Notes: a model not told the origin generated them from the sequence alone. Counted from the first letter of the stretch, positions 4,917 through 32,846 are shown. The stretch: DNA of 32,846 nt from Methanobacteriota archaeon (GCA_013152685.1 JAADFX010000024.1:1-32846); one strand, 5' to 3'. A program made the numbers and translations.

Positions 4917-5501
4917 TTACATCTTCATCTCTCCCTCGCCCATCTCCATCTGCATTCCTTCCATTCCCTCCATGCCGCCCATGGCCATGCCGCCGAGGCC
5001 CTTCACCACCTCGGCCGTCACCTCCTCGTAGGTTAGAACCTCACCGCCGTGCTGCGATGCGAAGGCGTGGGCATCCTCACTCCTGGCAAAAGGTACAAGG
5101 TCCTCGCCCATGGGGCCGCGCACCTCGCTACCCTTCACATAGTACGCCTTCCTGGCGTCGGCGTACTGCTTTGTGGCATAGTCGGTAACGAAGACGGCCG
5201 CCACCTCTGAGGCGTCCACCCAGTGCTTCGGCTCATTCTTGACGCTCAGCCCCAGCAGGAACCTGAACATGTCCTTGGGGGAGTCGAAGTGGTAGCGCTC
5301 GCCGCTCTTCAGCACCACCTGGGCGCGCCACTCGGGGTACTTGGCTGGCATCATGCCGCACACCGGGCACTTGTCGTCCATCGTCGGCTCCACCGGCGCA
5401 ACCGCCGGCTCCTCCTGCACCTGAGCGCTCTCCGCGGGTTTTCCGGTGCACGCAGCGAACAGGAGCAGAAAGCCCATAAGAATCAGAGCCTTCGTCCTCA
5501 A
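4917..5501 (-). CDS. NosL-like copper-binding lipoprotein with Met-rich tail
   Basis: 194 residues from TTG 5501. This start is chosen because GGAGGTGAG lies about 4 nt upstream and translation then begins directly with a lipoprotein signal (RTKALILMGFLLLFAAC, lipid Cys at 18). An in-frame ATG at 5546 would add 15 residues and put the ribosome site inside the gene. The NosL core contains CPVCGM (Cys45, Cys48, Met50) and the following DSPKDM and YVKGSEVRGPMG segments. NosL proteins are extracytoplasmic Cu(I) chaperones known from N2O reductase maturation. The last 23 residues are almost only Met, Gly and Glu, with nine Met, a plausible extra copper site. No nosZ is visible in this window, so the client protein is unknown. 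Confidence 0.85.
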   Translation of the reverse strand: MRTKALILMGFLLLFAACTGKPAESAQVQEEPAVAPVEPTMDDKCPVCGMMPAKYPEWRAQVVLKSGERYHFDSPKDMFRFLLGLSVKNEPKHWVDASEVAAVFVTDYATKQYADARKAYYVKGSEVRGPMGEDLVPFARSEDAHAFASQHGGEVLTYEEVTAEVVKGLGGMAMGGMEGMEGMQMEMGEGEMKM

Positions 5502-5549
5502 ACCGCTCACCTCCATTTCTAAATTTTTGAGAAGTTCTTCTGACATGTG

Positions 5550-5564
5550 GAAATATTTAAAATT
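5550..5564 (-). promoter_or_regulatory. TATA region of the NosL-like gene
   Basis: The minus strand reads AATTTTAAATATTTC. It predicts a transcription start near 5530, leaving about 28 nt of leader that includes GGAGGTGAG before TTG 5501. This spacing independently supports the TTG start. Confidence 0.55.
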
Positions 5565-5633
5565 AATCGCTGAAATCGTTTCAATGGCGGAGTATTTTCC
5601 GTCAGCGCTGAAGCGTTACCACAAAATATGCGC

Positions 5634-5653
5634 AATTTCGCGTTTAAACGCGT
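5634..5653. promoter_or_regulatory. Candidate operator, perfect palindrome CGCGTTTAAACGCG
   Basis: The core 5639-5652 is a perfect 14-bp palindrome, CGCGT-TTAA-ACGCG, flanked on one side by AATTT. It lies between the stop of the membrane regulator gene (5653-5655) and the NosL-like gene, about 75 bp upstream of the NosL TATA region. Read on the minus strand, the 20 nt match 17 of 20 positions with the site at 11911-11930. Position upstream of TATA suggests activation, but no experiment supports this. Confidence 0.5.
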
Positions 5654-6564
5654 CAGACGTTGAGCCTCACCCTGAAGGTCTTCTTGTAGGGCTCCCTGAC
5701 TATCAGACCCCTCGCCTCCAGGTCTGAGATTATCCTGCTAACCTTAGGCCTGGAGAAGGGCAGAACCTCACTCTTCCATATATTCTCCTGCAGCACCTCA
5801 CCCCCCTGGCTTCTGATGAACTCGACGATGGCGCGCTCCTCCTCGTTCAGGAACACGCTGGCCACCTCTGCCCTGCGCCTGCGCTTCGCATAGTGGAAGC
5901 CCACCAGAAAGGCGGCGCCCAGGAGGATTAAAGAGAGGAGGAGGTAGGCAGGGCGACTGTCATTCGGGAGGTGTATCCCCACCTCGAAGCTCTCCCCCGC
6001 TCCCAGGGAGCGCTCCCACATGAGGGTAACCCTCCCCTCCTGAATCGCCACCCCGTCCGGCGGGATGCTGGTGCTCCTCTGGAAGGTGTCGGCGGAGCAG
6101 CAGTTGGGCAGGGTGCGGTTGAAGGTCCTCACCTCGGGGAGCACCCCCCTGGGGAAGACGACCAGCAGGCGGTAGCTGTCTATGGGATATGGGGTCGAGA
6201 AGCCCTTGTAGAAGTAGGTGCTGTCCACGAACTCCACCTTCTCCACTGTGCGCAGGATAAAGGCTATGCTCTCGCCCTCGGCCAGGGGCTCGGGGAAGTA
6301 GATCCGCTTCCTGACGCCGCTGCCCTCCACCCTGAGCCTCTCACCACCCCGCGTGGTGGCCTCCAGGGGGAGGTGGTAGGCAAAGTCGAAGTACTCCAGG
6401 TTATCCACCCGGGAGGTGAGCTCCACGTGGAACTCCTCCACCCCCGTCTCCAGGTCGAGGATTGTAGTAATCCTGTTAATGTGGTATCCGCCGTCGTAGG
6501 CACACGCAGCCGGGAGAAGGAGAACAAAGCCCAGGAGGATGAGGGGATATTTCAGGTTCATCAA
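5653..6564 (-). CDS. Membrane-anchored winged-helix transcriptional regulator with an outside sensor domain
   Basis: 303 residues. The N terminus is hydrophobic and ends in a possible lipobox (LPAAC, Cys21). An extracytoplasmic beta-rich domain of about 185 residues follows, with a CC pair (PNCCSAD, near 153). A transmembrane helix lies at about 208-228 (YLLLSLILLGAAFLVGF), then RRRR on the cytoplasmic side. The C-terminal 60 residues form a winged helix (EEERAIVEFIRSQGG, then FSRPKVSRIISDLEARGLI). This architecture is a one-component membrane sensor-regulator. Known archaeal proteins of this layout sense envelope signals, but this one's ligand is unknown. It is divergent from the propeller lipoprotein gene and upstream of the NosL gene, so both are candidate targets. 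Either ATG 6564 or ATG 6561 may be used. Confidence 0.75.
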   Translation of the reverse strand: MMNLKYPLILLGFVLLLPAACAYDGGYHINRITTILDLETGVEEFHVELTSRVDNLEYFDFAYHLPLEATTRGGERLRVEGSGVRKRIYFPEPLAEGESIAFILRTVEKVEFVDSTYFYKGFSTPYPIDSYRLLVVFPRGVLPEVRTFNRTLPNCCSADTFQRSTSIPPDGVAIQEGRVTLMWERSLGAGESFEVGIHLPNDSRPAYLLLSLILLGAAFLVGFHYAKRRRRAEVASVFLNEEERAIVEFIRSQGGEVLQENIWKSEVLPFSRPKVSRIISDLEARGLIVREPYKKTFRVRLNV

Positions 6565-6593
6565 AACCTTATGATTTGCCTAACATCTTAACA

Positions 6594-6610
6594 CCTGTTG
6601 TAAGCACAGG
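6594..6610. promoter_or_regulatory. Inverted repeat in the divergent promoter region
   Basis: CCTGT-N7-ACAGG lies between the divergent genes starting at 6564 and 6661. Its arms are only 5 bp. It could be an operator for either gene. The preceding TTAACACCTGT is also found in the inverted-repeat region at 29421-29450 (minus strand), which may be chance. Confidence 0.3.
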
Positions 6611-6625
6611 CAGAAAAAACGACGA

Positions 6626-6637
6626 AAAATTTTAATA
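6626..6637 (+). promoter_or_regulatory. TATA box of the propeller lipoprotein gene
   Basis: AAAATTTTAATA is centred about 29 nt before ATG 6661. This implies transcription from the start codon itself or very near it (a leaderless mRNA) and favours ATG 6661 over an in-frame TTG at 6652. Confidence 0.5.
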
Positions 6638-6660
6638 CTCAGGAAAAAGGATTGGTTAGC

Positions 6661-7788
6661 ATGCGTTCGTCCCTGTTACTTCTGTTCTGTGCGGCGATTG
6701 CTGCCGGGTGCATCGGTGCCGGTGAGCCCCCCGCTGGGCTGAACAGCGAGGGCGGGGGATGGGTGATGTTCCAGCACGACCTCTCCCACACGGGGAGGGC
6801 TGAGGAGGCGGTGGAGCCGCCCCTGCGGCTGCTCTGGGAGGCTCCCACCCGCGGCCAGGTGGGCTACTCGTCCCCCGTGGTGGCAGATGGCCTGGTGCTG
6901 CTGGGGAGCACCGACTGGCACCTCTACGCCTTCAACGCCACCACCGGAGAGGTGGTGTGGAAGTTCCCCACCGGCGGTGAGGTACACTCCACGCCAGCCG
7001 TAGCAGGGGGAAAGGTGTACTTCGGAAGCTATGACGGCTCCCTCTATGCCCTGGATCTGAAAACCGGCAAAAAGCTGTGGCGCTACAAGGCAAAGGGGGA
7101 GATTCTGACATCGCCGGCGGTGGCAGATGGGAGGGTGTTCTTCGGAACCTTCGGCGGTTCCATCATCGCCCTCAACGCCGAGAACGGCAAAAAGCTCTGG
7201 GAGAGGAAGACCTCGGGGCAGGTGCACTCATCGCCGGCGGTGGCGGGGGGAGTTGTGTACACCTCCTCCTACCAGGAGTACCGGGTGTATGCCCTCCAGG
7301 CGGAGACGGGCAGGGTTGTGTGGACCTTCGACACCCGCGGGTTTATCCACGCCTCGCCGGCGGTGGCAGAGGGAAGGGTGTACATCCCCTCCAAGGACTC
7401 CTTCCTGTACTGCCTCGACGCAGCCACGGGAGGGGAGGTGTGGAGGTTTGAAACCGGGGCACCCATCGACTCCACGCCAGCCGTAGCATGGGGAAGGGTG
7501 TACTTCGGAAGCTATGACGGGTTCGTGTATGCGGTGGACGCGGAGAGCGGAGAGGAGGTGTGGAGGACGGAGATAGGAGCCCAGTTCATCGGCTCTCCTG
7601 CTGTGGCGGGGGGCGCTGTGTACATAGGCGCACTGGACGGCAGGCTCTACGCCCTCAGCGCTGAAAGCGGGGAGGTGCTGTGGAACCACTCCCTGGGGAG
7701 CATGACCTACTCCTCGCCGGCAGTGGCAGGGGGAAGGGTGTACATCCCCAGCCTTGACGGGGTGCTCTACGCCTTCGCACCAGAGTGA
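6661..7788 (+). CDS. PQQ-type beta-propeller lipoprotein (eight repeats)
   Basis: 375 residues from ATG 6661. The signal peptide ends in a lipobox (IAAGC), so the protein is lipid-anchored outside the membrane. The rest is eight repeats of about 40 residues, each of the form SPAVAxGxVYxGSxDGxLYALxxxTGxxVW. This is the PQQ/quinoprotein-like propeller also found in BamB and in alcohol dehydrogenases. No catalytic domain or dehydrogenase Ca2+/PQQ ligand set is evident, so a scaffold or binding role is more likely. The stop overlaps a GTG start of the JAMM gene by 3 bp (GTGA). The divergent membrane regulator shares the upstream region. BamB-like naming should be avoided because archaea lack the Bam complex. 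Confidence 0.85.
   Translation: MRSSLLLLFCAAIAAGCIGAGEPPAGLNSEGGGWVMFQHDLSHTGRAEEAVEPPLRLLWEAPTRGQVGYSSPVVADGLVLLGSTDWHLYAFNATTGEVVWKFPTGGEVHSTPAVAGGKVYFGSYDGSLYALDLKTGKKLWRYKAKGEILTSPAVADGRVFFGTFGGSIIALNAENGKKLWERKTSGQVHSSPAVAGGVVYTSSYQEYRVYALQAETGRVVWTFDTRGFIHASPAVAEGRVYIPSKDSFLYCLDAATGGEVWRFETGAPIDSTPAVAWGRVYFGSYDGFVYAVDAESGEEVWRTEIGAQFIGSPAVAGGAVYIGALDGRLYALSAESGEVLWNHSLGSMTYSSPAVAGGRVYIPSLDGVLYAFAPE
6986..7520 (+). repeat. Near-identical DNA in propeller repeats 2 and 6
   Basis: The 52-bp segments 6986-7037 and 7469-7520 differ at only two positions, although most repeats in this gene differ far more. They are 483 bp apart, four propeller blades. This suggests recent internal duplication or gene conversion inside the propeller gene. 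Confidence 0.7.
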
Positions 7789-8282
7789 AGCCCATGCTGG
7801 TGATTCCCAGGAAGCTGCTGGAGGAGATGCTGGAGCACGCCAGGAGGTGTGCTCCGCAGGAGGCCTGCGGGGTTATAGCCGGGGAGCGCAGAGGGGGGCG
7901 CGGGATCGCCAGGGCGGTGTACAGGTGCAGAAATGTGTCCTCCATGCCAGAGGTGAGGTACACTATCGCACCCGAGGACCTGGTGAGGGCGCTCGATGAC
8001 GTGGAGAAGAAGGGCATGGAGGTGCTGGGCTTCTACCACTCCCACCCCCACGGGGGCGTGCTCCCCTCGGCGATAGACAGCGCCAGGGCGAGCTGGCACG
8101 GGGCCAGCTATGTGATAGTAAACCTGCGGGGCGAGGCGGCGGCGTGGCTCTGGGATGAGGAGGCGGGGAGGTTCAGGAGGGAGAGGCTGCTAGTGGTAGA
8201 AGAGGGTGCCCACCATGGCGTAGAAGATGAGCATGAAGGCGACGGAAACCGCCAGAAAGCCCCCCAGGGAGAGGAGGGATAG
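7785..8282 (+). CDS. JAMM/MPN+ metalloprotease
   Basis: 165 residues from GTG 7785; ATG 7794 is an alternative. The complete JAMM zinc site is present: Glu26 in QEACGVIAGE, His85 and His87 in FYHSHPHGG, Ser95 and Asp98 in PSAIDSA. In archaea, such stand-alone MPN+ proteins remove ubiquitin-like SAMP proteins (desampylases) or process ThiS/MoaD-like sulfur carriers; the second role would suit the sulfur genes downstream. Translational coupling with the propeller gene (GTGA overlap) is clear. The domain proper ends near RERLLVVEEG. The last 30 or so residues are read from DNA that also encodes the end of the opposite-strand membrane protein (93-bp overlap) and are low in complexity. Confidence 0.85.
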   Translation: MKPMLVIPRKLLEEMLEHARRCAPQEACGVIAGERRGGRGIARAVYRCRNVSSMPEVRYTIAPEDLVRALDDVEKKGMEVLGFYHSHPHGGVLPSAIDSARASWHGASYVIVNLRGEAAAWLWDEEAGRFRRERLLVVEEGAHHGVEDEHEGDGNRQKAPQGEEG

Positions 8283-9209
8283 CCGCGCCAGGCTCCTCTG
8301 AAGCTGAGCAGCGCTTTCCCTGAGGGAGGGCTTCTTCTTGAGAAACTCGGCAAGCGCCACCAGCAGCCCCGAGACGCCTCCGGCGAAGAGGAGGGCGTAG
8401 AGGGGGTACCCCACCAGGGGCTGGCGCAGCACCTCGAAGGGGCAGCGGTGCTGGGTGGGGAGGCCGAAGAGAACCACGTTGAAGTAGGGGCTGAGGAAGG
8501 TGAACATCGCCAGAAGTGAGCTGAGAAAGGCAGAGAGGGCGGCAAAGCCGGAGAAGAGGGCGTAGCGGGAGGTGCGCAGGTGCAGGAACAGCGCCGCCAG
8601 CGCCGCGGTGAAGGTGAGGAAGAAGAGCGCCATGGCAACCTCCCCGGGGAAGCTCATCGCCACAAAGCCGTAGGGGTTCTCAAGGCTGCGCAGCGCAGAG
8701 CCGCAGCAGGAGGTTATCACGTCCGCCTTTATGCTGGTGTAAAACCGCACCTCGAGATAGATGTCCGCCAGCAGAAGGGGGAGGAGGAGCAGGAGGAGCG
8801 CATACTTGGGCCTCACCAGCGGGTAGTCCTCCGCCCGGGAGTCTATGTGGTTGACCATGAGCCAGGAGGAGTAGGCGAAGATGGCAGCCACCTTCACCCA
8901 GAGCGCCCTGAAGCCGTAGTCGTTTGAGTTCAGCGAGCCAAAGGCGCACATGGCGCCGCTTATGAAGCTCGCCAGGTAGTCGGCGGTGACCACAAAGAGG
9001 AGCAGGGAGAGGACCTGAAACGCCAGGGCGTACTGCACCAGTGTGGACACCAGGTAGCTGCGCTTTTCCAGCTCCAGCTGCTCCTCACTGGCACTCCCCG
9101 GCTGCCAGCGCAGCAGTATCCTGACCCCCTGAAGCGCCGCGTACAGCCCCAGGAGCACCACCACTACGAGCCCGAGAATCTGGCTCAGCACCCAGAAGTT
9201 CAGTATCAC
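8190..9209 (-). CDS. Polytopic membrane protein with conserved-looking Cys motifs, last gene of the NosL/ABC operon
   Basis: 339 residues from GTG 9209, which overlaps the ABC ATPase stop by 4 bp (GTGA) and follows GGAGAGG. About eight hydrophobic helices are visible. Between helices are GAMCAFGSLNSN (near 85), SCCGSALRSLENP (near 168) and QHRCPFEVL (near 268). From memory, membrane proteins with a CCGS and a later H-x-CPF motif occur beside NosL and MacB-type ABC genes in other anaerobes, but I know no assigned function. Cysteines on loops next to a Cu(I) chaperone suggest metal handling or thiol redox exchange across the membrane. It ends inside the 3' end of the convergent JAMM gene. Confidence 0.75.
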   Translation of the reverse strand: MILNFWVLSQILGLVVVVLLGLYAALQGVRILLRWQPGSASEEQLELEKRSYLVSTLVQYALAFQVLSLLLFVVTADYLASFISGAMCAFGSLNSNDYGFRALWVKVAAIFAYSSWLMVNHIDSRAEDYPLVRPKYALLLLLLPLLLADIYLEVRFYTSIKADVITSCCGSALRSLENPYGFVAMSFPGEVAMALFFLTFTAALAALFLHLRTSRYALFSGFAALSAFLSSLLAMFTFLSPYFNVVLFGLPTQHRCPFEVLRQPLVGYPLYALLFAGGVSGLLVALAEFLKKKPSLRESAAQLQRSLARLSLLSLGGFLAVSVAFMLIFYAMVGTLFYH

Positions 9210-9886
9210 CTCTCCACACCTACCAGCGAGCCGTCCCGCATGTCGAAGATTACATCAACCAGCCTGTGCTCATACACCAGGGGGTCGTGGGTGGCAATCA
9301 CCACAGTCCTGCCCTCCTCCCTGAGGCTCCGCACTATCTCAAGGAACTCGGCAGCAAGGGAGGTGTCCAGATGGGCGGTGGGCTCGTCGGCTATCACAAT
9401 CTCCGGGTTGTTTATCAGCGCTCTTGCAATGGCGACGCGCTGCATCTCGCCTCCGCTCAGCTCCCTCACCCTGAAGCTTCGCCTGTGCGCCAGGTTCAGG
9501 CGCTCCAGGAGCCTGAGGGCGCGCTCCTCCGCCTCTTTTGGCGGGGTGGAGGTGGGCACCAGGGGGGCGGTGACATTCTCCAGCACTGTGAGGCCGGGTA
9601 TGAGGTTGAACTGCTGGAAGATTATGCCGATGTGCTCCCGCCTGAAGCGGGTGAGGAAGCTCTCGGGAAGCCTGGAGACCTCCTTCCCGAGCACAAACAC
9701 CCTGCCGGAGGTGGGCCTCGCGGCGCAGGCGATGAGGGTGAGGAGTGTCGTCTTTCCGCTCCCGCTGGGCCCCCTGAGCACCGCCACCTCACCGCTTGCG
9801 ATTTCCAGGGTGACGTCCCTCACCGCCACCACTTCGTTGGGCCTTCCCCTGTTGAATACCTTTGTCACCCTCTCACAGCGTATCAA
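9206..9886 (-). CDS. ABC transporter ATPase, MacB/LolD type
   Basis: 226 residues. The Walker A motif GPSGSGKT is at 39-46. Next come the Q-loop FQQFN, the signature LSGGEMQRVAIARAL, Walker B IVIADEPTAHLD and a switch His in ATHD. It pairs with the FtsX/MacB-type permease directly upstream: the permease stop TAG (9889-9887) abuts this TTG start (9886), and GGGGG lies about 6 nt before the TTG. In the MacB family the ATPase drives a mechanotransmission permease that moves lipoproteins or small molecules from the membrane outward rather than classical transmembrane transport. The operon context suggests service to NosL or the small Cys protein; the substrate is unknown. Confidence 0.9.
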   Translation of the reverse strand: MIRCERVTKVFNRGRPNEVVAVRDVTLEIASGEVAVLRGPSGSGKTTLLTLIACAARPTSGRVFVLGKEVSRLPESFLTRFRREHIGIIFQQFNLIPGLTVLENVTAPLVPTSTPPKEAEERALRLLERLNLAHRRSFRVRELSGGEMQRVAIARALINNPEIVIADEPTAHLDTSLAAEFLEIVRSLREEGRTVVIATHDPLVYEHRLVDVIFDMRDGSLVGVER

Positions 9887-11044
9887 CTATATCCCCCGCA
9901 TGGCCTCATCAGGGTCAACTGTGCTCGCCCTCCAGGAGGGCACCACCACCGCCGCCAGAAAGGGAACCACGCTGACCATGAATATGAGCAGGAGGTCCTC
10001 CACGGAGAGGGCCGGCATCAGCTCAAAGCTGGGGTACAGGGTTGACCAGCCCAGGAGCACCGGCTTGAGCAGCGGAGCACCCAGCTGGTAGACGTGGAGG
10101 TACGCCAGGATTATTCCCAGCAGGTAGGAGTTCAGAGCCAGAAGCACGCCCTCGTAGGTGCGCATCTCCAGCACGTCTCCCGTGCTCCACCCCAGCGCCT
10201 TTAGGATGCCGATCTCCCTCTTCTCCTCAGCGCTCAGCCCCGAGGCCCTGTCCCACACCAGAATCGCAAAGGCTAGAAGCGCCCCTATTATGCTGGCCAG
10301 GAAGATTCCTGAGCGCCACCCGAAGATCGCATCGTAGGTCTCGCGTATTTGAGCTCTAGTGAGAACCCTGGCGTCGGGCAGGGCGAGGGAGATCTTGTAG
10401 GCTATGTTGGTGAGCTCCGCCGGATTGGCCACGTACACCGCCAGGTCGTTGGCCACCTCAGGGGGTATCCCGAAGAACTCCCTCGCCGTCGCCCTGGGCA
10501 TGGCTATTATGTCGGCGCTCTGCAGCGAGGAGCTGGAGGAGAAGACGCCGGCGACGGTAAACTTAACATAGTTCCCCCTGTAGTCCCTGAGGATTATCCT
10601 GTCTCCGGGGCGAATCCTCTTTTTCTCGGCTATCGCATAGCCCACCGCCACCTCCCCCTCTCCCGGTGGGCTGCCCTCCACAACGGCGAAGGGCAGGCTT
10701 TCCACGCCCAGGATGGTGTAGGTGGCGTCCTCAACCGCGTCGTAGTAGTAGCCCCACACCCTGGGCTCGACGCGGCTCACCCCCCTTATCTCCTCAATCC
10801 TTGCGGCATAGCTCAGAGGCACGAGCCCCTGCCTTCCAGCGACTATCTTCTGGACGGTTATGTCGGGGGCGAGGGCGAGGGTCTCCTCCGCCTCCTTCTT
10901 GAGGGAGCCCATCATCATCACCACGCTGGCCAGCATGAAGACCACGAGGGTGAAGACCAGCAGAGTTGCCAGGTTCTTGCCCTTCCTCCTCAGCATGAAG
11001 CGCGCCGCATAGTCCAGGATGTTCAGGTGCTTTCTCAGGCTCAT
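9887..11044 (-). CDS. ABC transporter permease, MacB/FtsX type
   Basis: 385 residues from ATG 11044 (MSLRKHLNILDYAARFMLRR), preceded by GAGGTGGAG and overlapping the small Cys protein stop (ATGA). Topology is the FtsX/MacB form. One N-terminal helix (LATLLVFTLVVFMLASVVMM) is followed by an extracytoplasmic domain of about 200 residues containing GVSRVEPRVWGYYYDAV. Three C-terminal helices follow; the cytoplasmic loop reads EEKREIGILKALGWSTGDV, which is the family's coupling signature. The outside domain has no Cys or His cluster that would mark direct metal binding. It works with the adjacent ATPase at 9206-9886. Confidence 0.85.
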   Translation of the reverse strand: MSLRKHLNILDYAARFMLRRKGKNLATLLVFTLVVFMLASVVMMMGSLKKEAEETLALAPDITVQKIVAGRQGLVPLSYAARIEEIRGVSRVEPRVWGYYYDAVEDATYTILGVESLPFAVVEGSPPGEGEVAVGYAIAEKKRIRPGDRIILRDYRGNYVKFTVAGVFSSSSSLQSADIIAMPRATAREFFGIPPEVANDLAVYVANPAELTNIAYKISLALPDARVLTRAQIRETYDAIFGWRSGIFLASIIGALLAFAILVWDRASGLSAEEKREIGILKALGWSTGDVLEMRTYEGVLLALNSYLLGIILAYLHVYQLGAPLLKPVLLGWSTLYPSFELMPALSVEDLLLIFMVSVVPFLAAVVVPSWRASTVDPDEAMRGI

Positions 11045-11346
11045 CTCTCCACCTCTATTGTCGTGTCGAAGCCCGCGAAAACCGGCCTGCCGAAGCCGGT
11101 GCAGGAGGCGTGGTAGCACAGCTGCGCTGGCATGTCCCTGAAGCAGCCCGAGAAGTCCACTGTGCTTGGATTGCGGGTGGAGTAGCAGTCTGTGGCTATT
11201 GACAGGTCGCTCAGACCCAGGGCCCTGGAGAGGGAGCGCTTCTCCTCCAGCAGGACGTGGGGCGCCTCTGAGGAGGCGAGCAGCAGGAAGGTGAGCAGCT
11301 GGAGCAGGAGCACCGCCAGAGCCAGCACTCCAGGACGCACCCTCAT
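11041..11346 (-). CDS. Small exported four-cysteine protein
   Basis: 101 residues from ATG 11346. It overlaps the NosL stop upstream (ATGA) and the permease start downstream (ATGA), so it is translationally coupled on both sides and is very probably a real gene. The first 25 residues are a signal peptide or membrane anchor (LALAVLLLQLLTFLLLASS). The outside part has exactly four cysteines, at 54, 68, 77 and 82 (spacing C-x13-C-x8-C-x4-C), around TDCYSTRNP, SGCFRDMPAQLCYHASC. I do not recognise a family. Two disulfides or a metal site are both possible. Being between a Cu(I) chaperone and its ABC permease makes metal or thiol transfer a reasonable guess. Confidence 0.8.
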   Translation of the reverse strand: MRVRPGVLALAVLLLQLLTFLLLASSEAPHVLLEEKRSLSRALGLSDLSIATDCYSTRNPSTVDFSGCFRDMPAQLCYHASCTGFGRPVFAGFDTTIEVER

Positions 11347-11813
11347 GGAGGCTTCACGCCCCTTTCCACAACCTCCTGGAAGGTGAGCACCTCGGTGGCA
11401 GGGCCCATGGAGTACTCCCTGCGGAAGTTCTCCGCATCCCCGCTGTCTGCGAAAACCGCTATTCCGAATCCCATGGGGGTGGAGATGGCGGCGTTGACCA
11501 CGAAGTAGGCGTCCTCGACGGATACCCACTCCTGGGTGTAGTAGTCGCGGCAGTATATCTTCAGGATGTTCTCCCGGTGCTTCGAGTGGTAGATGAACAT
11601 GTCGCCGGGGTCGTCGAAGAAGACCACCTCCCTGCTCCCGAGTATCGCCTCGCACGCCCAGTTTTCGTATTCCTTTACAAACATTCCGCACTCGGGGCAG
11701 CGCGCGCCCTCGGGCACGGGCACAGGCGAGAGGTCCGGCGAGACGACCCTCTCGCCCTTCTGGGCGCATCCCGCCAGCAGCAGGAGGAAGAAGAGGAGCA
11801 CCAGCACGCGCAT
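11343..11813 (-). CDS. NosL-like copper-binding lipoprotein (second copy)
   Basis: 156 residues from ATG 11813. The signal peptide ends in a lipobox (LLAGC, Cys16). NosL features are CPECGM (Cys39, Cys42, Met44), FFDDPGDM, and the C-terminal TPMGFGIAVFADSGDAENF. It therefore resembles the copy at 4917-5501, but it lacks the Met-rich tail and differs widely in sequence, so this is an old duplication or separate acquisition. It is the first gene of a five-gene operon: NosL, small Cys protein, permease, ATPase, membrane protein. AGGA lies about 8 nt before the ATG. NosL homologues bind Cu(I) in the N2O reductase pathway; no nosZ or nosD is present here, so the client is unknown. Confidence 0.85.
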   Translation of the reverse strand: MRVLVLLFFLLLLAGCAQKGERVVSPDLSPVPVPEGARCPECGMFVKEYENWACEAILGSREVVFFDDPGDMFIYHSKHRENILKIYCRDYYTQEWVSVEDAYFVVNAAISTPMGFGIAVFADSGDAENFRREYSMGPATEVLTFQEVVERGVKPP

Positions 11814-11830
11814 GAGCTATTTCCTGTGGA

Positions 11831-11844
11831 GAAAAATATAAAAA
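11831..11844 (-). promoter_or_regulatory. TATA box of the NosL/ABC operon
   Basis: The minus strand reads TTTTTATATTTTTC, centred about 25 nt before ATG 11813. This predicts a very short leader or leaderless transcript for the operon running down to 8190. Confidence 0.55.
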
Positions 11845-11910
11845 CCTAATCCCTGAAACCGTCCGGAGAGGAGGAGATAGAGGGGGCACCTGCCAGGAAA
11901 ACCCGGGATA

Positions 11911-11930
11911 ACGCGTCAGAACGCGAAATT
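11911..11930. promoter_or_regulatory. Candidate operator CGCGT-CAGA-ACGCG in the divergent ABC promoter region
   Basis: 11912-11925 is an inverted repeat with the same 5-bp arms and 4-bp spacer as the site at 5639-5652. The following AAATT is also shared, giving 17 of 20 identical positions. It sits about 30 bp upstream of the TATA of the plus-strand ABC permease gene and about 70 bp upstream of the TATA of the minus-strand NosL operon, so one bound regulator could control both. Confidence 0.5.
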
Positions 11931-11956
11931 AAATTCCCCTTACCTGCTGACGAAAT

Positions 11957-11967
11957 GTTTATCTTTA
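11957..11967 (+). promoter_or_regulatory. TATA box of the second ABC transporter operon
   Basis: GTTTATCTTTA is about 27 nt before ATG 11989. No ribosome binding site is visible between them, which fits a leaderless mRNA. Confidence 0.45.
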
Positions 11968-11988
11968 AGACCTCCCGACTCAATAGAC

Positions 11989-13182
11989 ATGCGGATGAGC
12001 CTGCTCCACCTGGCACTTCAGAACCTCCGGATGAGGAAGTTCAGAACCCTGGGGGTGGTACTTGCCATAGCCATCGCCTCCGCGGCGCTCTTCTCCTCAA
12101 TTATGCTGATGAAGAGCATGTCCTCCTCCATTGAGCTGGGCATGGCCCAGCTGGGCGCCGACATAATGGTGGTTCCCGGGGATGCGGAGCCGGAGGGGGC
12201 GATACTGCTGGGCGGGGCGCCTGAGTGGGGGTACTTCAGCCTGAGGTACGCTGAGGCTATATCCTCCCTGGAGGACGTCGCCGGAGTTGCCCCCCTCGCC
12301 TTTGTGGAAACCACTGAGGGGTGCTGCTTCAGGAGCGGGGTGTACATCGTGGGCTTTGACAGGGAGAAGGACTTTCTCATAAAGCCCTGGGTTGAGAAGC
12401 AGGTGGGCGAGCTTAGAGCCTTCGACGCGGTAGCCGGCGCAGGCTACGACTGGCTCCCCGGCTCAGAGGTCCGGCTCTACGGCGTCTCCTTCACCATAGT
12501 TGCAAAAATACCCGCCACCGGGGTGGCGAGCTTCGACAGGGGAGTTTTTATACCCCTGGACAGGCTGTACTGGCTGTCAAAGCGCTCCCGGGAAGCGGGC
12601 ATCGCCGGCATGCCGCTGGAGCAGGGGGAGGTGTCAGCGCTCATGGTCAGGCTGGAGCCGGATGCCAACCCTGTTAGCGTCGCCAGAGCAATTGAGTTCC
12701 AGTTCCCGGAACTCAGGGCGGTGGTGGCGAAGAAGGCGCTGAGCAACGTGAAGAGGCAGATGCAGGTGATGCTCCAGAGCCTGCTCGCCCTCAGCGCCCT
12801 CACCTGGCTAACCGCCGTAATTCTGGTCTCTGTAATCCTCTCTATGAGCGTAAATGAGCGCAGGCGGGAGTTTGGAATTCTCCGCGCCCTGGGCGCGACA
12901 AAGCGCTTCATCTTCGGGCAGGTGGTGGTTGAGGCGTACCTTCTCGCCACCCTGGGGAGTGTGCTCGGAATGCTTGCCGGCTACACCTTCCTGGCCCTCT
13001 TCCAGGATGTGATAGAGGGGTACCTGAGGATGCCCTACCTCCTGCCCAACGAGCTCTACGTGGCGCTGATAAGCATCGCCACCATCGACGTCGCCCTCAT
13101 CCTGGCAACCATAGCAAGCGTCTACCCCGCCTACAGGAGCGCAGAGCTGGAGCCGTACGATGCCATAAGGTCGGGTGAATAG
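11989..13182 (+). CDS. ABC transporter permease, MacB/FtsX type (second system)
   Basis: 397 residues from ATG 11989; ATG 11995 is also possible. The N-terminal helix is FRTLGVVLAIAIASAALFSS. The outside domain of about 210 residues holds a CC pair (EGCCFRSGVY, near 111) and begins LGADIMVVPGDAEPEG, a segment seen in MacB-like permeases. Three helices follow, and the coupling loop NERRREFGILRALGATKRFIFG is clear. The protein differs much from the permease at 9887-11044. The ATPase follows with an 8-bp overlap. Promoter and candidate operator are shared, divergently, with the NosL operon. Substrate unknown; a linked role with the NosL operon is inferred from position. Confidence 0.85.
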   Translation: MRMSLLHLALQNLRMRKFRTLGVVLAIAIASAALFSSIMLMKSMSSSIELGMAQLGADIMVVPGDAEPEGAILLGGAPEWGYFSLRYAEAISSLEDVAGVAPLAFVETTEGCCFRSGVYIVGFDREKDFLIKPWVEKQVGELRAFDAVAGAGYDWLPGSEVRLYGVSFTIVAKIPATGVASFDRGVFIPLDRLYWLSKRSREAGIAGMPLEQGEVSALMVRLEPDANPVSVARAIEFQFPELRAVVAKKALSNVKRQMQVMLQSLLALSALTWLTAVILVSVILSMSVNERRREFGILRALGATKRFIFGQVVVEAYLLATLGSVLGMLAGYTFLALFQDVIEGYLRMPYLLPNELYVALISIATIDVALILATIASVYPAYRSAELEPYDAIRSGE

Positions 13183-13852
13183 GGTGATAGCCACTGAGAG
13201 GCTGACCAAGATCTACAATACCGGCGGCAGTGAGATAAAGGCGGTGCGGGGGGTAAGCCTGAGGGTGGAGAAGGGTGAGTTTATTTCAATAGTGGGGCAC
13301 TCGGGGAGCGGGAAGACCACCCTCCTGTCGATGATAGGCGGGCTCACAAGGCCCACCTACGGCAGGGTGCTGATAGACGGCGTGGACATATGGGCGATGA
13401 GCGACGAGGAGCTCTCCCGCTTCAGAAACAGGAAGATCGGCTTCATGTTCCAGTTCTCCAGCCTCATCTCCACCCTCACCGTCAGGGACAACATGCTGCT
13501 TCCCGCCGCCCTCTCGGGAAAGGTGGAGCAGCAGCACGAGGAGAGGGCGCTCGAGCTGCTGGAGCGCCTGGGGCTGGAGCACAGGGCAGGCGCCTACCCG
13601 GCGCAGCTCTCCGGCGGTGAGCAGCGCAGGGTGGCTGTGGCAAGGGCATTTATGAACCGCCCGGAAATCATACTGGCAGACGAGCCCACGGGCGACCTGG
13701 ACGAGGAGTCGGAGGAGCAGGTGATGGAGCTCCTCACCCACATGAACAGGGAGGAGGGCGTGACAATCCTGCTGGTCACCCACAACCTGGAGCTTGCGGC
13801 AAGGACGCGGAGAACCCTCAGGATGAGGAGGGGGCGCCTGGAGGAGCGGTAA
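13175..13852 (+). CDS. ABC transporter ATPase, MacB/LolD type (second system)
   Basis: 225 residues from GTG 13175, overlapping the permease by 8 bp; a second GTG at 13184 could equally start it. Walker A is GHSGSGKT at 41-48. Also present are FQFSS at the Q-loop, signature LSGGEQRRVAVARAF, Walker B IILADEPTGDLDEES and the switch His in LVTHN. All catalytic elements are intact. Partner of the preceding permease. It is followed by an A/T-rich stretch that carries the LysR promoter, so the ABC operon likely ends here. Confidence 0.9.
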   Translation: MNRVIATERLTKIYNTGGSEIKAVRGVSLRVEKGEFISIVGHSGSGKTTLLSMIGGLTRPTYGRVLIDGVDIWAMSDEELSRFRNRKIGFMFQFSSLISTLTVRDNMLLPAALSGKVEQQHEERALELLERLGLEHRAGAYPAQLSGGEQRRVAVARAFMNRPEIILADEPTGDLDEESEEQVMELLTHMNREEGVTILLVTHNLELAARTRRTLRMRRGRLEER

Positions 13853-13976: not shown

Positions 13977-14903
13977 GTGAAGCTGAGGCTGGACTACCTT
14001 CAGACTTTTAAAGAGGTTGTTGAAGAGGGAAGTTTTCTCGGCGCCTCAAAGGCGCTCGGGATGAGTGTTAGTACAATAAGTCTGCACATAGACGCTGTAG
14101 AAAAGTTCTTTGAGGCGAGGCTCCTGGAGAGGAACGTCAGCGGGGTTAAGCTGACCAGAGAGGGCGAGATCGCCTACAACAGCATAAGGGAGCTGTTTAC
14201 CCTCCTGGAAAAGACGAAGAAGGGCATAAAGAACCTGACGACAAAGATAGTGAACATCGCCATCGGCTGCGTCGGCGTGCCCATAATCGCTGAGATTCAG
14301 ATGGGCTACAAGACTGTGCAGCCGGATGTGGACGTGAGGGTGAAGCTCACCGGGGAGTACACCTGCCTGGACCTGCTGGAGCACGGGGAGGTGAGCGTCG
14401 TCCTAGCAGGGTACCCCGCACCCCTGAAGCTGGGCGACGGCTACCGCGTGGAGGAGATAGGCTACGACCGCTTTGTGCTGATTGTGCCCCCCAACCACGA
14501 GCTGGCGAACAAGGAGGAGGTCACCGTAGAGGACGTCCTCTCCTACCCCATGGTGACACTGAACAAGGGGTACAGCAGCACCGCTATAGAGGACACCCTG
14601 AAGGAGCTGAGGAACATTGAGAAGGAGCAGAAGATAGAGTGCAGTGTTAACGACATCTTCTCCCAGATATACGGCGTCTCCTCGGGCTTGGGTACGGCGA
14701 TTGCGAGCTACGTGCTGTCGAAGCGGTACGAGGAGGGGGGGCTGGTGGTGATAAAGGAGATCAAGGACTTCACGGATGAGAGGCCGATATACGCAATAAC
14801 CACGGACAAGGCGCTGGAGAACCCGGTCATCGCGGACTTTTATGCGTATCTCGTTGAGAGAGGTACGGAACTCCTGGAAAAATACCGTGTGAGAGGCGGT
14901 TAA
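13977..14903 (+). CDS. LysR-type transcriptional regulator
   Basis: 308 residues from GTG 13977. The N-terminal winged helix is typical of LysR: LQTFKEVVEEGSFLGASKAL, then SVSTISLHIDAVEKFF, then LTREGEIAY. A linker helix and a periplasmic-binding-protein-like effector domain follow (VNIAIGCVGVPIIAEI, then DRFVLIVPPNHELA). The next gene starts at the base after its stop codon, so it is the first gene of the operon LysR-V4R-TusA-YeeE-YeeE and probably senses a sulfur-related effector. LysR proteins are mainly bacterial, so an old acquisition from bacteria is possible. The effector is unknown. Confidence 0.9.
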   Translation: MKLRLDYLQTFKEVVEEGSFLGASKALGMSVSTISLHIDAVEKFFEARLLERNVSGVKLTREGEIAYNSIRELFTLLEKTKKGIKNLTTKIVNIAIGCVGVPIIAEIQMGYKTVQPDVDVRVKLTGEYTCLDLLEHGEVSVVLAGYPAPLKLGDGYRVEEIGYDRFVLIVPPNHELANKEEVTVEDVLSYPMVTLNKGYSSTAIEDTLKELRNIEKEQKIECSVNDIFSQIYGVSSGLGTAIASYVLSKRYEEGGLVVIKEIKDFTDERPIYAITTDKALENPVIADFYAYLVERGTELLEKYRVRGG

Positions 14904-15431
14904 ATGAGGGAAAATGCAAAAAAGTACATACCCTACATATGGCTGGACGACGAGACGGGACATCCCCTCATGATGAACGAGAGGTGCACCATAATCTTCA
15001 GCGAAACCCTCAGCACCCTCAGGCTCAGCCTCTACAAGATCATCGGGGAAGGCTCCGAGATGCTGCTGAGGCTGATCGGCAGGGACATGGGGAAGAAGTA
15101 CGCCCAGCTCGTGCTGAAGCAGTACCCGGAGCTCAACGAGGTCAGCAAGCACACGAGGATATACGAGCTCTGCTCAATAATCCTGAGAAACACCGGCTTC
15201 GGGCAGATTAAAATCCTGGAGCTGGACGTGGAGAAGCCCAGGATGAGGGCGATAATAAAGGACGCCCCCTCGGGGCTTGGCGTCAAGTCCCTCCCGCCGG
15301 TGTACAACCTGGAGGCGGGCATGCTGTGCGGGATCCTGGAGGAGATCTTCGACAGGGAGATGTTCGTCGCCGAGTACAGGTTTAATGAGCACGAGGATAA
15401 CTACGAGCTTACCATAACGAAGGTGGAATAA
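14904..15431 (+). CDS. V4R-like ligand-binding domain protein
   Basis: 175 residues, ATG directly after the LysR stop. The layout resembles the V4R (4-vinyl reductase) small-molecule-binding fold. A helical N-terminal half contains EMLLRLIGRDMGKKYAQLVL. Then comes a strand-rich part with MRAIIKDAPSGLG, then NLEAGMLCGILEEIFDREMF and a final strand pair EYRFNEHEDNYELTITKV. Family members have the order dup-loop, then GxxxG-like helix, then vExxC; here the usual final Cys pair is missing. The gene is coupled to LysR and TusA, so it may sense or carry a sulfur ligand. I hold the V4R label with moderate confidence only. Confidence 0.55.
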   Translation: MRENAKKYIPYIWLDDETGHPLMMNERCTIIFSETLSTLRLSLYKIIGEGSEMLLRLIGRDMGKKYAQLVLKQYPELNEVSKHTRIYELCSIILRNTGFGQIKILELDVEKPRMRAIIKDAPSGLGVKSLPPVYNLEAGMLCGILEEIFDREMFVAEYRFNEHEDNYELTITKVE

Positions 15432-15653
15432 ATGCGGGTTCTGGACGTGAGAGGTGAGATATGTCCCGTGCCCCTGGTTAAGTGCGTTAATGAGATCAAG
15501 AAGATGAAGCCCGGGGAGGTGCTCAAGGTTATATCCGACCACCCCCCGGCGAAGAAGAGCATCCCCATGGAGATGGAGGCTCAGGGCCACGAGTACACAA
15601 TAGAGGAGAACGGCGCCGAGTTCACCATAACAATAACTGTGAAGGGTAAGTGA
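15432..15653 (+). CDS. TusA-family sulfur carrier
   Basis: 73 residues, ATG directly after the preceding stop. It has the TusA core with the CPVP motif (Cys10 in RGEICPVPLVK), followed by MKPGEVLKVISDHPPAKKSIP, all as expected. TusA proteins carry sulfur as a persulfide on that Cys. In operons with YeeE/YedE transporters they receive or deliver sulfur taken up from outside. A second TusA, with CPMP, is encoded at 24921-25154, with a DsrE-type partner instead. The YeeE gene downstream overlaps this stop (GTGA at 15650). Confidence 0.9.
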   Translation: MRVLDVRGEICPVPLVKCVNEIKKMKPGEVLKVISDHPPAKKSIPMEMEAQGHEYTIEENGAEFTITITVKGK

Positions 15654-16126
15654 GTATGCGCTACCTTTCCCCGGTGGTAGCCGCAGTACTGCTGGCAGCG
15701 CTGAACGTGGTGCTGTACGTAACCCTGGACCGCCCCTGGAGCATAACCACGGGGGAGAGCCACCTCGTCGCCTACATCGAGAATCTGTTTTTTCCGGAGC
15801 ACGTGAGCAGCAGCCTCTACTTCAGAAAGTACATCCCGGAGCTCAACTGGCGGGTGTGGCTGAACTTCGGGATAATCCTGGGAGCCTTTATCGGCGCGTA
15901 CCTCGGCAGGGACTTCAAAATCAGGATACCCGCCGCCAAGTCGCGATTTGTGCAGGTTTTTATCGGCGGGGTCCTGATGGGCTACGGGGCAAGACTCGCG
16001 CTGGGCTGCAACGTCGGGCACATCATGTCAGGGGTGCCCCAGATGGCGGTCTCCAGCTTCCTGGCCTTCGGCGCCATCGCCGCGGGCGCATACCTGGGAG
16101 GAAGAATACTGCTGAGGCTGGTGTGA
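15650..16126 (+). CDS. YeeE/YedE-family transporter, first half
   Basis: 158 residues from GTG 15650 (GTGA overlap with tusA); ATG 15656 is an alternative. It has about four hydrophobic helices. The key segment LALGCNVGHIMSG, near 122, holds the single conserved-type Cys of this half. YeeE/YedE (TsuA-like) proteins import thiosulfate or a related sulfur compound, using cysteines in the pore. Usual bacterial members are about 350 residues in one chain; here the two halves are separate genes that abut without a gap (stop 16124-16126, ATG 16127), so they likely assemble as a heterodimer. Confidence 0.85.
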   Translation: MSMRYLSPVVAAVLLAALNVVLYVTLDRPWSITTGESHLVAYIENLFFPEHVSSSLYFRKYIPELNWRVWLNFGIILGAFIGAYLGRDFKIRIPAAKSRFVQVFIGGVLMGYGARLALGCNVGHIMSGVPQMAVSSFLAFGAIAAGAYLGGRILLRLV

Positions 16127-16657
16127 ATGGAATCCCTGGTGGGCTTTGCCATAGGCGTGGCGATAGGGTTCGTGCTGGAGAGGGGGCAGTTCTGCATGGC
16201 ATCCGCCTTCAGGGACTTTTTCCTCTTCAGACACACCCACCTGCTGAGGGCGGTGATGCTATACCTGGCGCTGCTGACTCCCGCCTTCTTCCTGCTCCAC
16301 TCCGCAGAGCTAGTGGAGACCTACCCCTACGTGAAGAACGGCGGGCTGTTCACGGTAATCGGGGGTGTGATTTTCGGGATTGGAATGGTGCTGGCGGGGG
16401 GCTGCGCCTCGGGAACCCTCTACAGGATAGGGGAGGGCTACGTGACGTCGCTGGTGGCACTGATAGGGATGCTCGTGGGGATAGCCATCTTCGGGGAGAG
16501 CTACCCCTGGGTACTGAGGGCGCTTATAGCACCCACAGAGTTTGGAAAGATGACCGCCGGGGAGCTTCTGGGAATAACCCAGCTCCAGGCTGTTGTACTG
16601 GGAACCCTGCTGTTCTCCGGGCTATACCTGCTGCTGGGGAGAAGGTTCAGACGATAG
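16127..16657 (+). CDS. YeeE/YedE-family transporter, second half
   Basis: 176 residues, ATG at the base after the previous stop. About five helices are visible. Cysteine motifs are ERGQFCMASAF (near 24) and LAGGCASGTLYRIGEG (near 93), matching the pore cysteines of the YeeE/YedE family. It forms a split transporter with the gene at 15650-16126. Co-transcribed tusA suggests that imported sulfur is passed to TusA. It is the last gene of the LysR operon; the next gene has its own TATA-like element. Confidence 0.88.
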   Translation: MESLVGFAIGVAIGFVLERGQFCMASAFRDFFLFRHTHLLRAVMLYLALLTPAFFLLHSAELVETYPYVKNGGLFTVIGGVIFGIGMVLAGGCASGTLYRIGEGYVTSLVALIGMLVGIAIFGESYPWVLRALIAPTEFGKMTAGELLGITQLQAVVLGTLLFSGLYLLLGRRFRR

Positions 16658-16709: not shown

Positions 16710-17483
16710 ATGAAGTATTTGCTGCTGGTTTTTACTCTGCTGGCGGGGCTGGCGGGGTGCACCTCGGCGCCGGAGAAGAAGCTCCCCTACAACTACAGGG
16801 AGGAGGCCCTGCTCTCAGCCCTGGCTGAGGGAACACCCGTGGTGCTGGAGATAGCCGCAGACTGGTGCAGGAACTGCATTGAGCAGCAGCCAATAATGGA
16901 GGAGCTCAGGGAGAGGTTTCCCGAGGTGACCTTTCTGCTGGCAGACTTCGACAGGGAGAAGGAGCTGGTGGAGAGGTACGGTGTGAGGGGAGTGCCCTAC
17001 TTTGTGCTTTTTGACTCCTCCGGGAGGGAGTTCGCCAGGATAAGCGGATTCCAGAAGAAGGAGACGCTCGAAACGCTGATAAACCAGATACTCCACAAAA
17101 ACTACGTGCTGAACGCCTCCTTCTCCACCTTCGAGGGGCTGGAGGACCCGGAAGTCAAAATTGAGAACAGAAGTCTGGTGGTAATAAAAACGGTGGCGCT
17201 GGAAAACCTCTCCATCTGGGGTGAGGGGGTGGAGGTGGCAATCGGTAACCTCACCCTGAGGATTGTGAATGTGACCCCAGACCTCTTCGCCATAAGGGAC
17301 TTCGAGACCCTCAACGTTACCCCGGGCACCCCCATTGAGATAGTGGCGGAGCTGCCCTCCAACTACACCCTGTACGAGCCGCTCAACCTGGACATCAAGA
17401 TAGGAATATGGGACGAGGCGTGCTGCGGAAACTACAGGGATGTGCTCCTGTGGGCGAACCTCACCGCCGCCACGGCACAGTGA
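16710..17483 (+). CDS. Thioredoxin-fold lipoprotein with C-terminal beta domain
   Basis: 257 residues from ATG 16710, with AGAGGAG 9 nt upstream. Signal peptide with lipobox (LLAGLAGC, Cys17). A thioredoxin fold follows, with active site ADWCRNC (Cys53, Cys56) and the cis-Pro loop GVPYFVLF, close to the C-terminal domain of DsbD or to TlpA-type thiol-disulfide proteins. About 115 further residues look like a beta-sandwich and end with a CC pair (DEACCGNY). An upstream TATA-like TTTATGTATAAA (16678-16689) suggests its own promoter. The protein would keep outside thiols reduced or handle sulfur or copper sites; the partner is unknown. The rhodanese at 17744 follows after 260 bp. Confidence 0.85.
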   Translation: MKYLLLVFTLLAGLAGCTSAPEKKLPYNYREEALLSALAEGTPVVLEIAADWCRNCIEQQPIMEELRERFPEVTFLLADFDREKELVERYGVRGVPYFVLFDSSGREFARISGFQKKETLETLINQILHKNYVLNASFSTFEGLEDPEVKIENRSLVVIKTVALENLSIWGEGVEVAIGNLTLRIVNVTPDLFAIRDFETLNVTPGTPIEIVAELPSNYTLYEPLNLDIKIGIWDEACCGNYRDVLLWANLTAATAQ

Positions 17484-32229: not shown

Positions 32230-32846
32230 ATGCCTGCAGAGAGGGAGGAGATTGAGCAGGGGTTATAGCGATGCCTCCGCCAGGTGGCTCTTCATCTCCG
32301 CCGCAGCCTGGCTGGGAGCGGCGGTCACCTTAGCTCTGCTGCTCGCGGTGAAGTTCGTCTATCCCGACTTCCTCTCGGGCCATGCATGGCTGCAGTTCGG
32401 CAGGCTCAGACCGGTGCACATAACCTTAGCCGCCTTCGGCTGGCTATCCATGGTGCAGGTGGCAATGGCCTACTACGTGGTGCCACGCCTGGCAAGGCAG
32501 GAGCTGCACAGCGGGAGGCTTGCAGGGCTGAGCGTGCTCCTGTGGAACCTCTTCCTCCTCCTCGCCGCCGCAACACTGCTCGCCGGGATGACGCAGGGCA
32601 GGGAGTACGCGGAGCTGGTTTATCCCCTTGACTTGCTCTTCCTGCTACTCCTCCTGCTGGTGGCGTACAACCTGGTGCGCACGGTGCTCGCCAGGAGGGA
32701 GGAGAAGCTCTACGTCAGCCTCTGGTACTTCCTGGCGGCGCTCCTCAGCATGCCTGTGGTGTACTTCGTGGGCAATGCCATGTGGGCTGGAGGAGCGCTC
32801 TACGGCGTGAACGACGCCATAGTCAACTGGTTCTACGGGCACAACA
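32230..32846 (+). CDS. cbb3-type cytochrome c oxidase subunit I (3' cut; apparent frameshift near the start)
   Basis: ATG 32230 follows GGAGGTG. It is read as MPAEREEIEQGL and then hits TAG 32266. A one-base shift in the GGGG at 32259-32262 instead continues as EQGYSDASARWLFISAAAW, and the frame is then open to the window end. That product is a membrane protein with RLRPVHITLAAFGW (His ligand of the low-spin heme), TQGREYAELVYPLDLL and the YGHN motif (CuB ligand) close to the edge. These are CcoN/NorB-like subunit I features; cbb3-type is favoured by TQGREYAEL. A TTG at 32252 in the long frame, with GGAGG 3 nt upstream, is an alternative start. The rest lies beyond the window. Confidence 0.75.

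Follow-up and report, generated by a model that had tools for sequence, protein, structure and literature searches.

A NosL-containing envelope locus with two MacB-type ABC pairs in Hydrothermarchaeota: a candidate ATP-driven system for Cu(I) or another thiophilic metal

NosL is known as the chaperone for the CuZ site of nitrous oxide (N2O) reductase (PMC6530538), and in the NosDFY–NosL system this lipoprotein is accompanied by an ATP-binding cassette (ABC) complex that is expected to act on extracytoplasmic metal hand-off. The iron-uptake system fetMP-fetABCDEF of Campylobacter jejuni joins a Cys-bearing membrane protein with eight transmembrane helices (8-TM) to two ABC permeases, an ATPase and thioredoxins (PMC10783030). 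ABC systems of the MacB type move no substrate across the membrane and do their work outside it (PMC5985334). Here we analyse a NosL locus at positions 4917–13852 of a 32,846-nt stretch of DNA (the window), which is an entire contig (C24) of a 1.8-Mb Hydrothermarchaeota genome (G000) from a hot-vent archaeon of the genus Candidatus Pyrohabitans. An initial annotation had described this locus as a NosL-centred envelope system without nosZ, and every gene that it listed was confirmed by translation of the open reading frames (ORFs) and by Pfam searches. The locus contains:

4917–5546, minus strand: NosL2 lipoprotein, with lipobox LFAAC, CPVCGM and GPMG (PF05573, E 9e-34)
5639–5652, unstranded: putative operator, perfect palindrome CGCGTTTAAACGCG, upstream of NosL2
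5653–6564, minus strand: membrane-anchored winged-helix protein, with a C-terminal DUF7343/MarR_2 domain and an invariant Cys-Cys (155–156) in an ectodomain insertion
6652–7788, plus strand: PQQ/BamB-like beta-propeller lipoprotein (PF13360)
7785–8282, plus strand: Prok-JAB (JAMM/MPN) protein (PF14464), syntenic, of uncertain membership
8190–9209, minus strand: MEMB, an 8-TM protein with H-x-CPF and CCGS motifs, no family match
9206–9886, minus strand: ATPase A, LolD/FtsE type (PF00005)
9887–11044, minus strand: permease A, MacB_PCD and FtsX domains (PF12704, PF02687), no Cys
11041–11346, minus strand: small exported protein, four Cys within the genus (from the translation)
11343–11813, minus strand: NosL1 lipoprotein, with lipobox LLAGC, CPECGM and TPMG (PF05573, E 1e-18)
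11912–11925, unstranded: putative palindromic operator CGCGTCAGAACGCG, in the divergent NosL1/permease B promoter region
11989–13182, plus strand: permease B, CC-FtsX type (PF02687/PF12704), with invariant Cys112-Cys113 in the extracytoplasmic domain
13175–13852, plus strand: ATPase B, LolD type (PF00005; NCBIfam LolD, E 3.6e-74, under the cut-off)

The locus resembles each of the described systems in part. As in NosDFY–NosL, a NosL lipoprotein stands beside ABC genes; however, the permeases are of the FtsX/MacB type and not like the ABC-2-type NosY (nor are the neighbouring ABCs of the nosFY type), MEMB is extra, and a search for NosD, made at the locus and not genome-wide, gave no match. Most carriers of the system also lack NosZ, and JdFR-17, a member of the genus, holds a separate canonical nos cluster besides. 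With FetABCDEF the locus shares an 8-TM Cys-bearing membrane protein, ABC permeases, an ATPase and a thioredoxin neighbour, but it has NosL where Fet has DUF2318/YHS, its MEMB shows no detectable homology to the FetA-like protein, and neither FTR1 nor P19 was recognised at the locus. The combination of a MacB_PCD/FtsX permease with a separate LolD/FtsE-like ATPase is that of MacB, LolCDE, FtsEX and HrtAB, whereas the operon partners NosL and MEMB and the invariant Cys-Cys of permease B are not. The uncharacterised CC-FtsX-ATPase-DUF4418 loci of Fusobacterium and Treponema carry the same Cys-Cys permease family beside a small multi-TM Cys protein, with DUF4418 in the place of MEMB and NosL. The system may work like NosDFY–L or FetABCDEF without being a member of either: the locus has no nosZ, nosD or DUF2318 domain. 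The literature search, which left most subscription journals outside, found no paper describing NosL with MacB/FtsX permeases. Our preferred explanation, to which we give about an even chance, is that the locus encodes a single co-regulated, ATP-driven machine of the envelope for the extracytoplasmic handling of Cu(I) or another thiophilic metal. In this explanation the metal, the direction of transfer, the direct contacts, the regulator and the client are inferred.

Judged by their sequences, NosL1 and NosL2 are true NosL lipoproteins. They scored 68 and 117 bits, respectively, against PF05573 (gathering score 24), and both matched the solved NosL structure 7osf (E 3.1e-6 for NosL1, 1.6e-16 for NosL2). 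In translation, both retain the lipobox Cys, the CXXCXM motif and the second conserved Met, and it is this motif and Met that were described for clade II NosL and tied to Cu(I) binding (PMC6530538). NosL in genomes with no nos_propeller match was also seen in the controls Bacillus subtilis and Haloferax volcanii. Two Hydrothermarchaeota genomes encode fusions of NosL with a membrane 4Fe-4S (NosR/NapH-like) module (L102:4550-6529 and L105:263-2518), and the L102 fusion gene adjoins genes for small exported proteins.

MEMB gave no match in Pfam, NCBIfam or PDB sequences. A structure model from 19 natural sequences (pLDDT 89.6, pTM 0.87) has eight long helices, and a fold search of the PDB with it gave no match at E<=0.001; on the sequences and this model, MEMB is best described as a new, unnamed membrane protein family. 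Likenesses of MEMB to VKOR or DUF4418 were by eye only, and a relationship to FetA was unsupported (hhalign probability 0.1% against the FetA-like protein). Every one of the 19 sequences has Met87, Cys88, Cys168, Cys169, His254 and Cys256, and these six invariant residues all lie in three loops on the same side of the membrane (TM2-3, TM4-5 and TM6-7). The opposite side is rich in Arg and Lys (mean K+R 11.5, versus 2.6 on the ligand-loop side), so the positive-inside rule places the ligand set outside. Other members have a CPFC motif, the second Cys of which is replaced by Glu in the lineage of the window.

The two FtsX/MacB_PCD permeases (PF12704 and PF02687), each with a LolD/FtsE-type ATPase (PF00005), matched MacB, LolC and LolF in the PDB. 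By domain content both ABC pairs are of the MacB type (type VII), and mechanotransmission, carried over from the family, would be their expected mode of action. A predicted structure of permease B, based on five close sequences, reached a pLDDT of 45 and was not used. Permease A was assigned the ATG start at 11044, in an ATGA overlap with the gene for the small exported protein, and not the upstream GTG. That small protein, reported initially as an exported protein with four Cys, is indeed present, but its Cys are not kept outside the genus: the homologues that precede permease A in Verrucomicrobia (local scores 59 and 56, against shuffle maxima of 35 and 37; 0/1000) lack them. A conserved metal site in this protein was ruled out on that ground.

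Cys-rich partners proved more numerous than the initial annotation had seen: permease B and the winged-helix protein also carry invariant Cys-Cys pairs. Among 37 window proteins, setting aside a second rhodanese whose pair is likely a start-site artefact, Cys-Cys pairs occur only in MEMB, permease B, the winged-helix ectodomain and a nearby thioredoxin-like lipoprotein, and in these four they are conserved across the genus wherever the gene is present. The pair of the winged-helix protein, invariant in five species, sits in an insertion that its paralogue does not have. The thioredoxin lipoprotein keeps its Cys in four species, with no orthologue found in G001 (JdFR-16). The pair of permease B is invariant in Hydrothermarchaeota paralogues, Fusobacterium and Treponema, and absent in Methylocella. 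A second CC-FtsX locus in the window's own genome (G000:C32; L158:1979-7839) has two CC-FtsX permeases and an ATPase adjoining YeeE/TsuA-type, TusA and cupredoxin-domain genes, and is possibly a sulphur or copper locus. The thioredoxin gene lies beyond the locus, together with a sulphur transporter, and both are neighbours of uncertain membership:

15650–16657, plus strand: YeeE/YedE half-transporter pair, sulphur transport (PF04143)
16710–17483, plus strand: thioredoxin-like lipoprotein, with invariant Cys-Cys 238–239 (PF00085)

A feature that the initial annotation had missed ties the parts of the locus together. The window holds exactly two copies of the palindrome CGCGT-N4-ACGCG, one upstream of NosL2 and one in the divergent NosL1/permease B promoter region, the core of which is conserved in five species; 30 Markov-shuffled windows held none. 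Statements about whole genomes, here and below, rest on family searches and pattern searches. Genome-wide, the same two sites were the only ones in G000, G001, G002 and G003, G004 had the NosL1 site alone, and no site was found at an oxidase, nosZ or any other gene in these five genomes; control patterns gave 0–3 scattered matches per genome. Since the palindrome is private to NosL2 and to the region between the NosL1 and second ABC operons, NosL1, NosL2 and both ABC pairs are read from the sequence as one regulon, comprising both divergent operons and NosL2 under a putative operator. The membrane winged-helix protein, with its external Cys-Cys, is our favoured candidate for the sensor acting on the operator. 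Downstream of the locus (13977–15431), a LysR-type regulator gene (13977–14903) and an adjacent gene for an unknown protein show 86–95% identity among the genus members, which exceeds the conservation of the surrounding genes; the LysR protein is also a candidate regulator.

The gene order recurs in relatives, as the initial annotation had asked to see. Orthologous contigs come from Candidatus Hydrothermarchaeota, and the genus set consisted of five genomes: the window's own (G000), Ca. Pyrohabitans JdFR-16 (G001) and JdFR-17 (G002), G003 and G004. The block is collinear in all five species at ∼44–97% protein identity, and thus the locus is not a chance arrangement. As far as the contigs permit comparison, the five genus members also agree in gene order over the stretch that runs from the KH-CPSF gene to ccoN, with G001 departing from it in having neither ccoN nor the thioredoxin gene. 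In another family the propeller lipoprotein still adjoins MEMB (G015, 54% identity). The JAB/JAMM gene overlaps the 3' end of MEMB convergently by ∼90 bp, and in sister genera without MEMB (G006/G008; L157, L134) a JAB gene lies directly before the permease B orthologue.

Beyond the archaeal phylum, one genome per species was scanned for MEMB, which turned up in Verrucomicrobia, Myxococcales/Polyangia, Deltaproteobacteria and Asgard archaea; a search of plasmids found none. Permease A, ATPase A, MEMB and NosL stand in a row on one strand in the Verrucomicrobia loci L083, L085 and L086; ATPase, MEMB and NosL are adjacent in the Myxococcales loci L084 and L089; and in a Polyangia record (L091) the permease-ATPase pair is ∼1.2 kb apart from MEMB-NosL. 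An ATPase A homologue adjoins MEMB in nearly all related loci. L085 comes from a bacterial metagenome-assembled genome (MAG) and was placed with the Verrucomicrobia loci on similarity; its operon is flanked by a thioredoxin and by NifX-like proteins that have His-rich tails (6600–13400). The description as a NosL-centred envelope system without nosZ thus holds, and is strengthened by the single regulon and by the core conserved in bacteria.

Neither N2O reductase nor heme-copper oxidase accounts for the system. That the locus is a remnant or accessory of the N2O reductase pathway would be in keeping with the known role of NosL and with the presence of nosZ in JdFR-17. However, JdFR-17 carries a complete canonical nosZ-nosD-nosF-nosY-nosL cluster (L101:1-14060), in which the TAT-type nosZ is accompanied by its own nosDFY genes and by a NosL that is the third in this genome, and this cluster has no regulon operator. 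As the initial annotation had it, nosZ is absent, with no PF18764 (nos_propeller) match anywhere in the window's own genome; nor is it present in G001, G003 or G004, making four of the five species with an intact system, and 12 of the 15 genomes behind MEMB loci, for which completeness is not given, likewise gave no match. On this phyletic pattern and the operator placement we reject a nosZ client, and consider a link to the pathway very improbable. The initial annotation had also suggested copper delivery to a heme-copper oxidase encoded from 32230, which is a cbb3-type CcoN-like fragment (32252–32845) cut by the contig end. Oxidases require copper, this ccoN is ∼18 kb away on the same contig, and in a relative (L110) ccoN and ccoO (cytochrome c) are followed by a gene for a His-rich P-type ATPase. 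Yet G001 (99% complete) has the whole system and neither nosZ, COX2, ccoN nor another copper oxidase, its sole clear COX1-family member, above weak repeated partial matches, being a NorB-type nitric oxide reductase, whereas G006 (99% complete) encodes COX2 and COX1 together with a ccoN that shares 90% identity with that of the window, and lacks NosL and MEMB. This double dissociation contradicts an oxidase client, the oxidase genes do not share the operator, and we regard delivery to the oxidase as highly unlikely. A multicopper oxidase or NirK client was set aside, as PF07732 gave no match in G000, G001, G003 or G004. An earlier survey put aside Nos and Cox of Hydrothermarchaeota, treating them as possible contamination (PMC6759336); the fact that they recur in several MAGs argues against this.

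Under the preferred explanation, an ATP-driven metal machine, MEMB would capture Cu(I) at the membrane face through the Met, Cys-Cys, His and Cys ligands on its three outward loops. Permease A and ATPase A, with the small exported protein, would convert ATP hydrolysis into an extracytoplasmic shape change by which metal passes between MEMB and NosL1, and NosL2 and the Cys-Cys permease B with ATPase B, under the same operator, would take part in the same metal traffic. The machine would serve metal capture, hand-off or clearance in the envelope at large, and would not be there to mature N2O reductase or a respiratory oxidase. Because a MacB-type ABC works outside the membrane, and its operon partners here are NosL and a membrane protein with Met, Cys and His, ATP-driven soft-metal hand-off is the most economical model. 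Several observations weigh against it. The Asgard loci consist of permease, ATPase and MEMB with NosL not nearby, and three bacterial MEMB loci (L087, L088, L097) lack NosL, so NosL is not obligatory; sister genera carry permease B without MEMB or NosL; and metal binding is a prediction from sequence for every member, with no client protein identified.

The residues would fit copper or thiol chemistry, and an alternative that we judge rather unlikely is a thiol or sulphur machine, in which the ABC pairs and MEMB keep exported Cys reduced or traffic sulphane sulphur and NosL is a thiol carrier or metal shield. The YeeE/YedE, rhodanese and thioredoxin-like genes that come next in the window would suit such a role too, a further point against metal handling, and the vicinal Cys-Cys of MEMB, permease B, the winged-helix protein and the thioredoxin, the sulphur-related neighbours of the second CC-FtsX locus and the thioredoxin gene near the L085 operon all point the same way. 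Against this, metal ligation suits the MEMB residues better than disulphide exchange does, since the set includes Met and His and, in the lineage of the window, Glu stands in place of the second CPFC Cys. In addition, NosL retains its Cu(I) motif and second Met, and the thioredoxin orthologue was not found in G001. A system supporting iron uptake in the manner of FetABCDEF, suggested by its similar set of components, is improbable. The Fusobacterium homologue of permease B does lie in a Fet-like cluster, whose other members include an FtrD/DUF2318 FetA-like gene, DUF4418 and two more FtsX-type permeases. However, homology of MEMB to the FetA-like protein was undetectable, the locus proteins scanned, MEMB among them, showed no FtrD/DUF2318 domain, and FTR1 (FetM) and P19 (FetP) were not recognised by eye in the locus ORF translations, a check that was not genome-wide and in which only some ORFs were scanned against Pfam.

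A wider form of the metal-handling explanation, a so far undescribed ATP-driven envelope Cu(I) relay found across archaea and bacteria and composed of a type VII ABC, a new 8-TM Cu(I)-docking family and a NosL that serves neither N2O reductase nor oxidase, is put forward tentatively, at somewhat less than an even chance. If it is true, NosL would be a general module that has been joined to different ABC engines. The locus brings to light a membrane family that has had no name and whose predicted soft-metal ligand set is strict. It suggests a testable role for NosL proteins in organisms without nosZ, and it cautions that nosL alone is unsafe as a marker of N2O reduction. NosL, described as a dedicated CuZ-site chaperone, is here part of a conserved system with a private putative operator, probably powered by MacB-type ABCs, that does not need N2O reductase.

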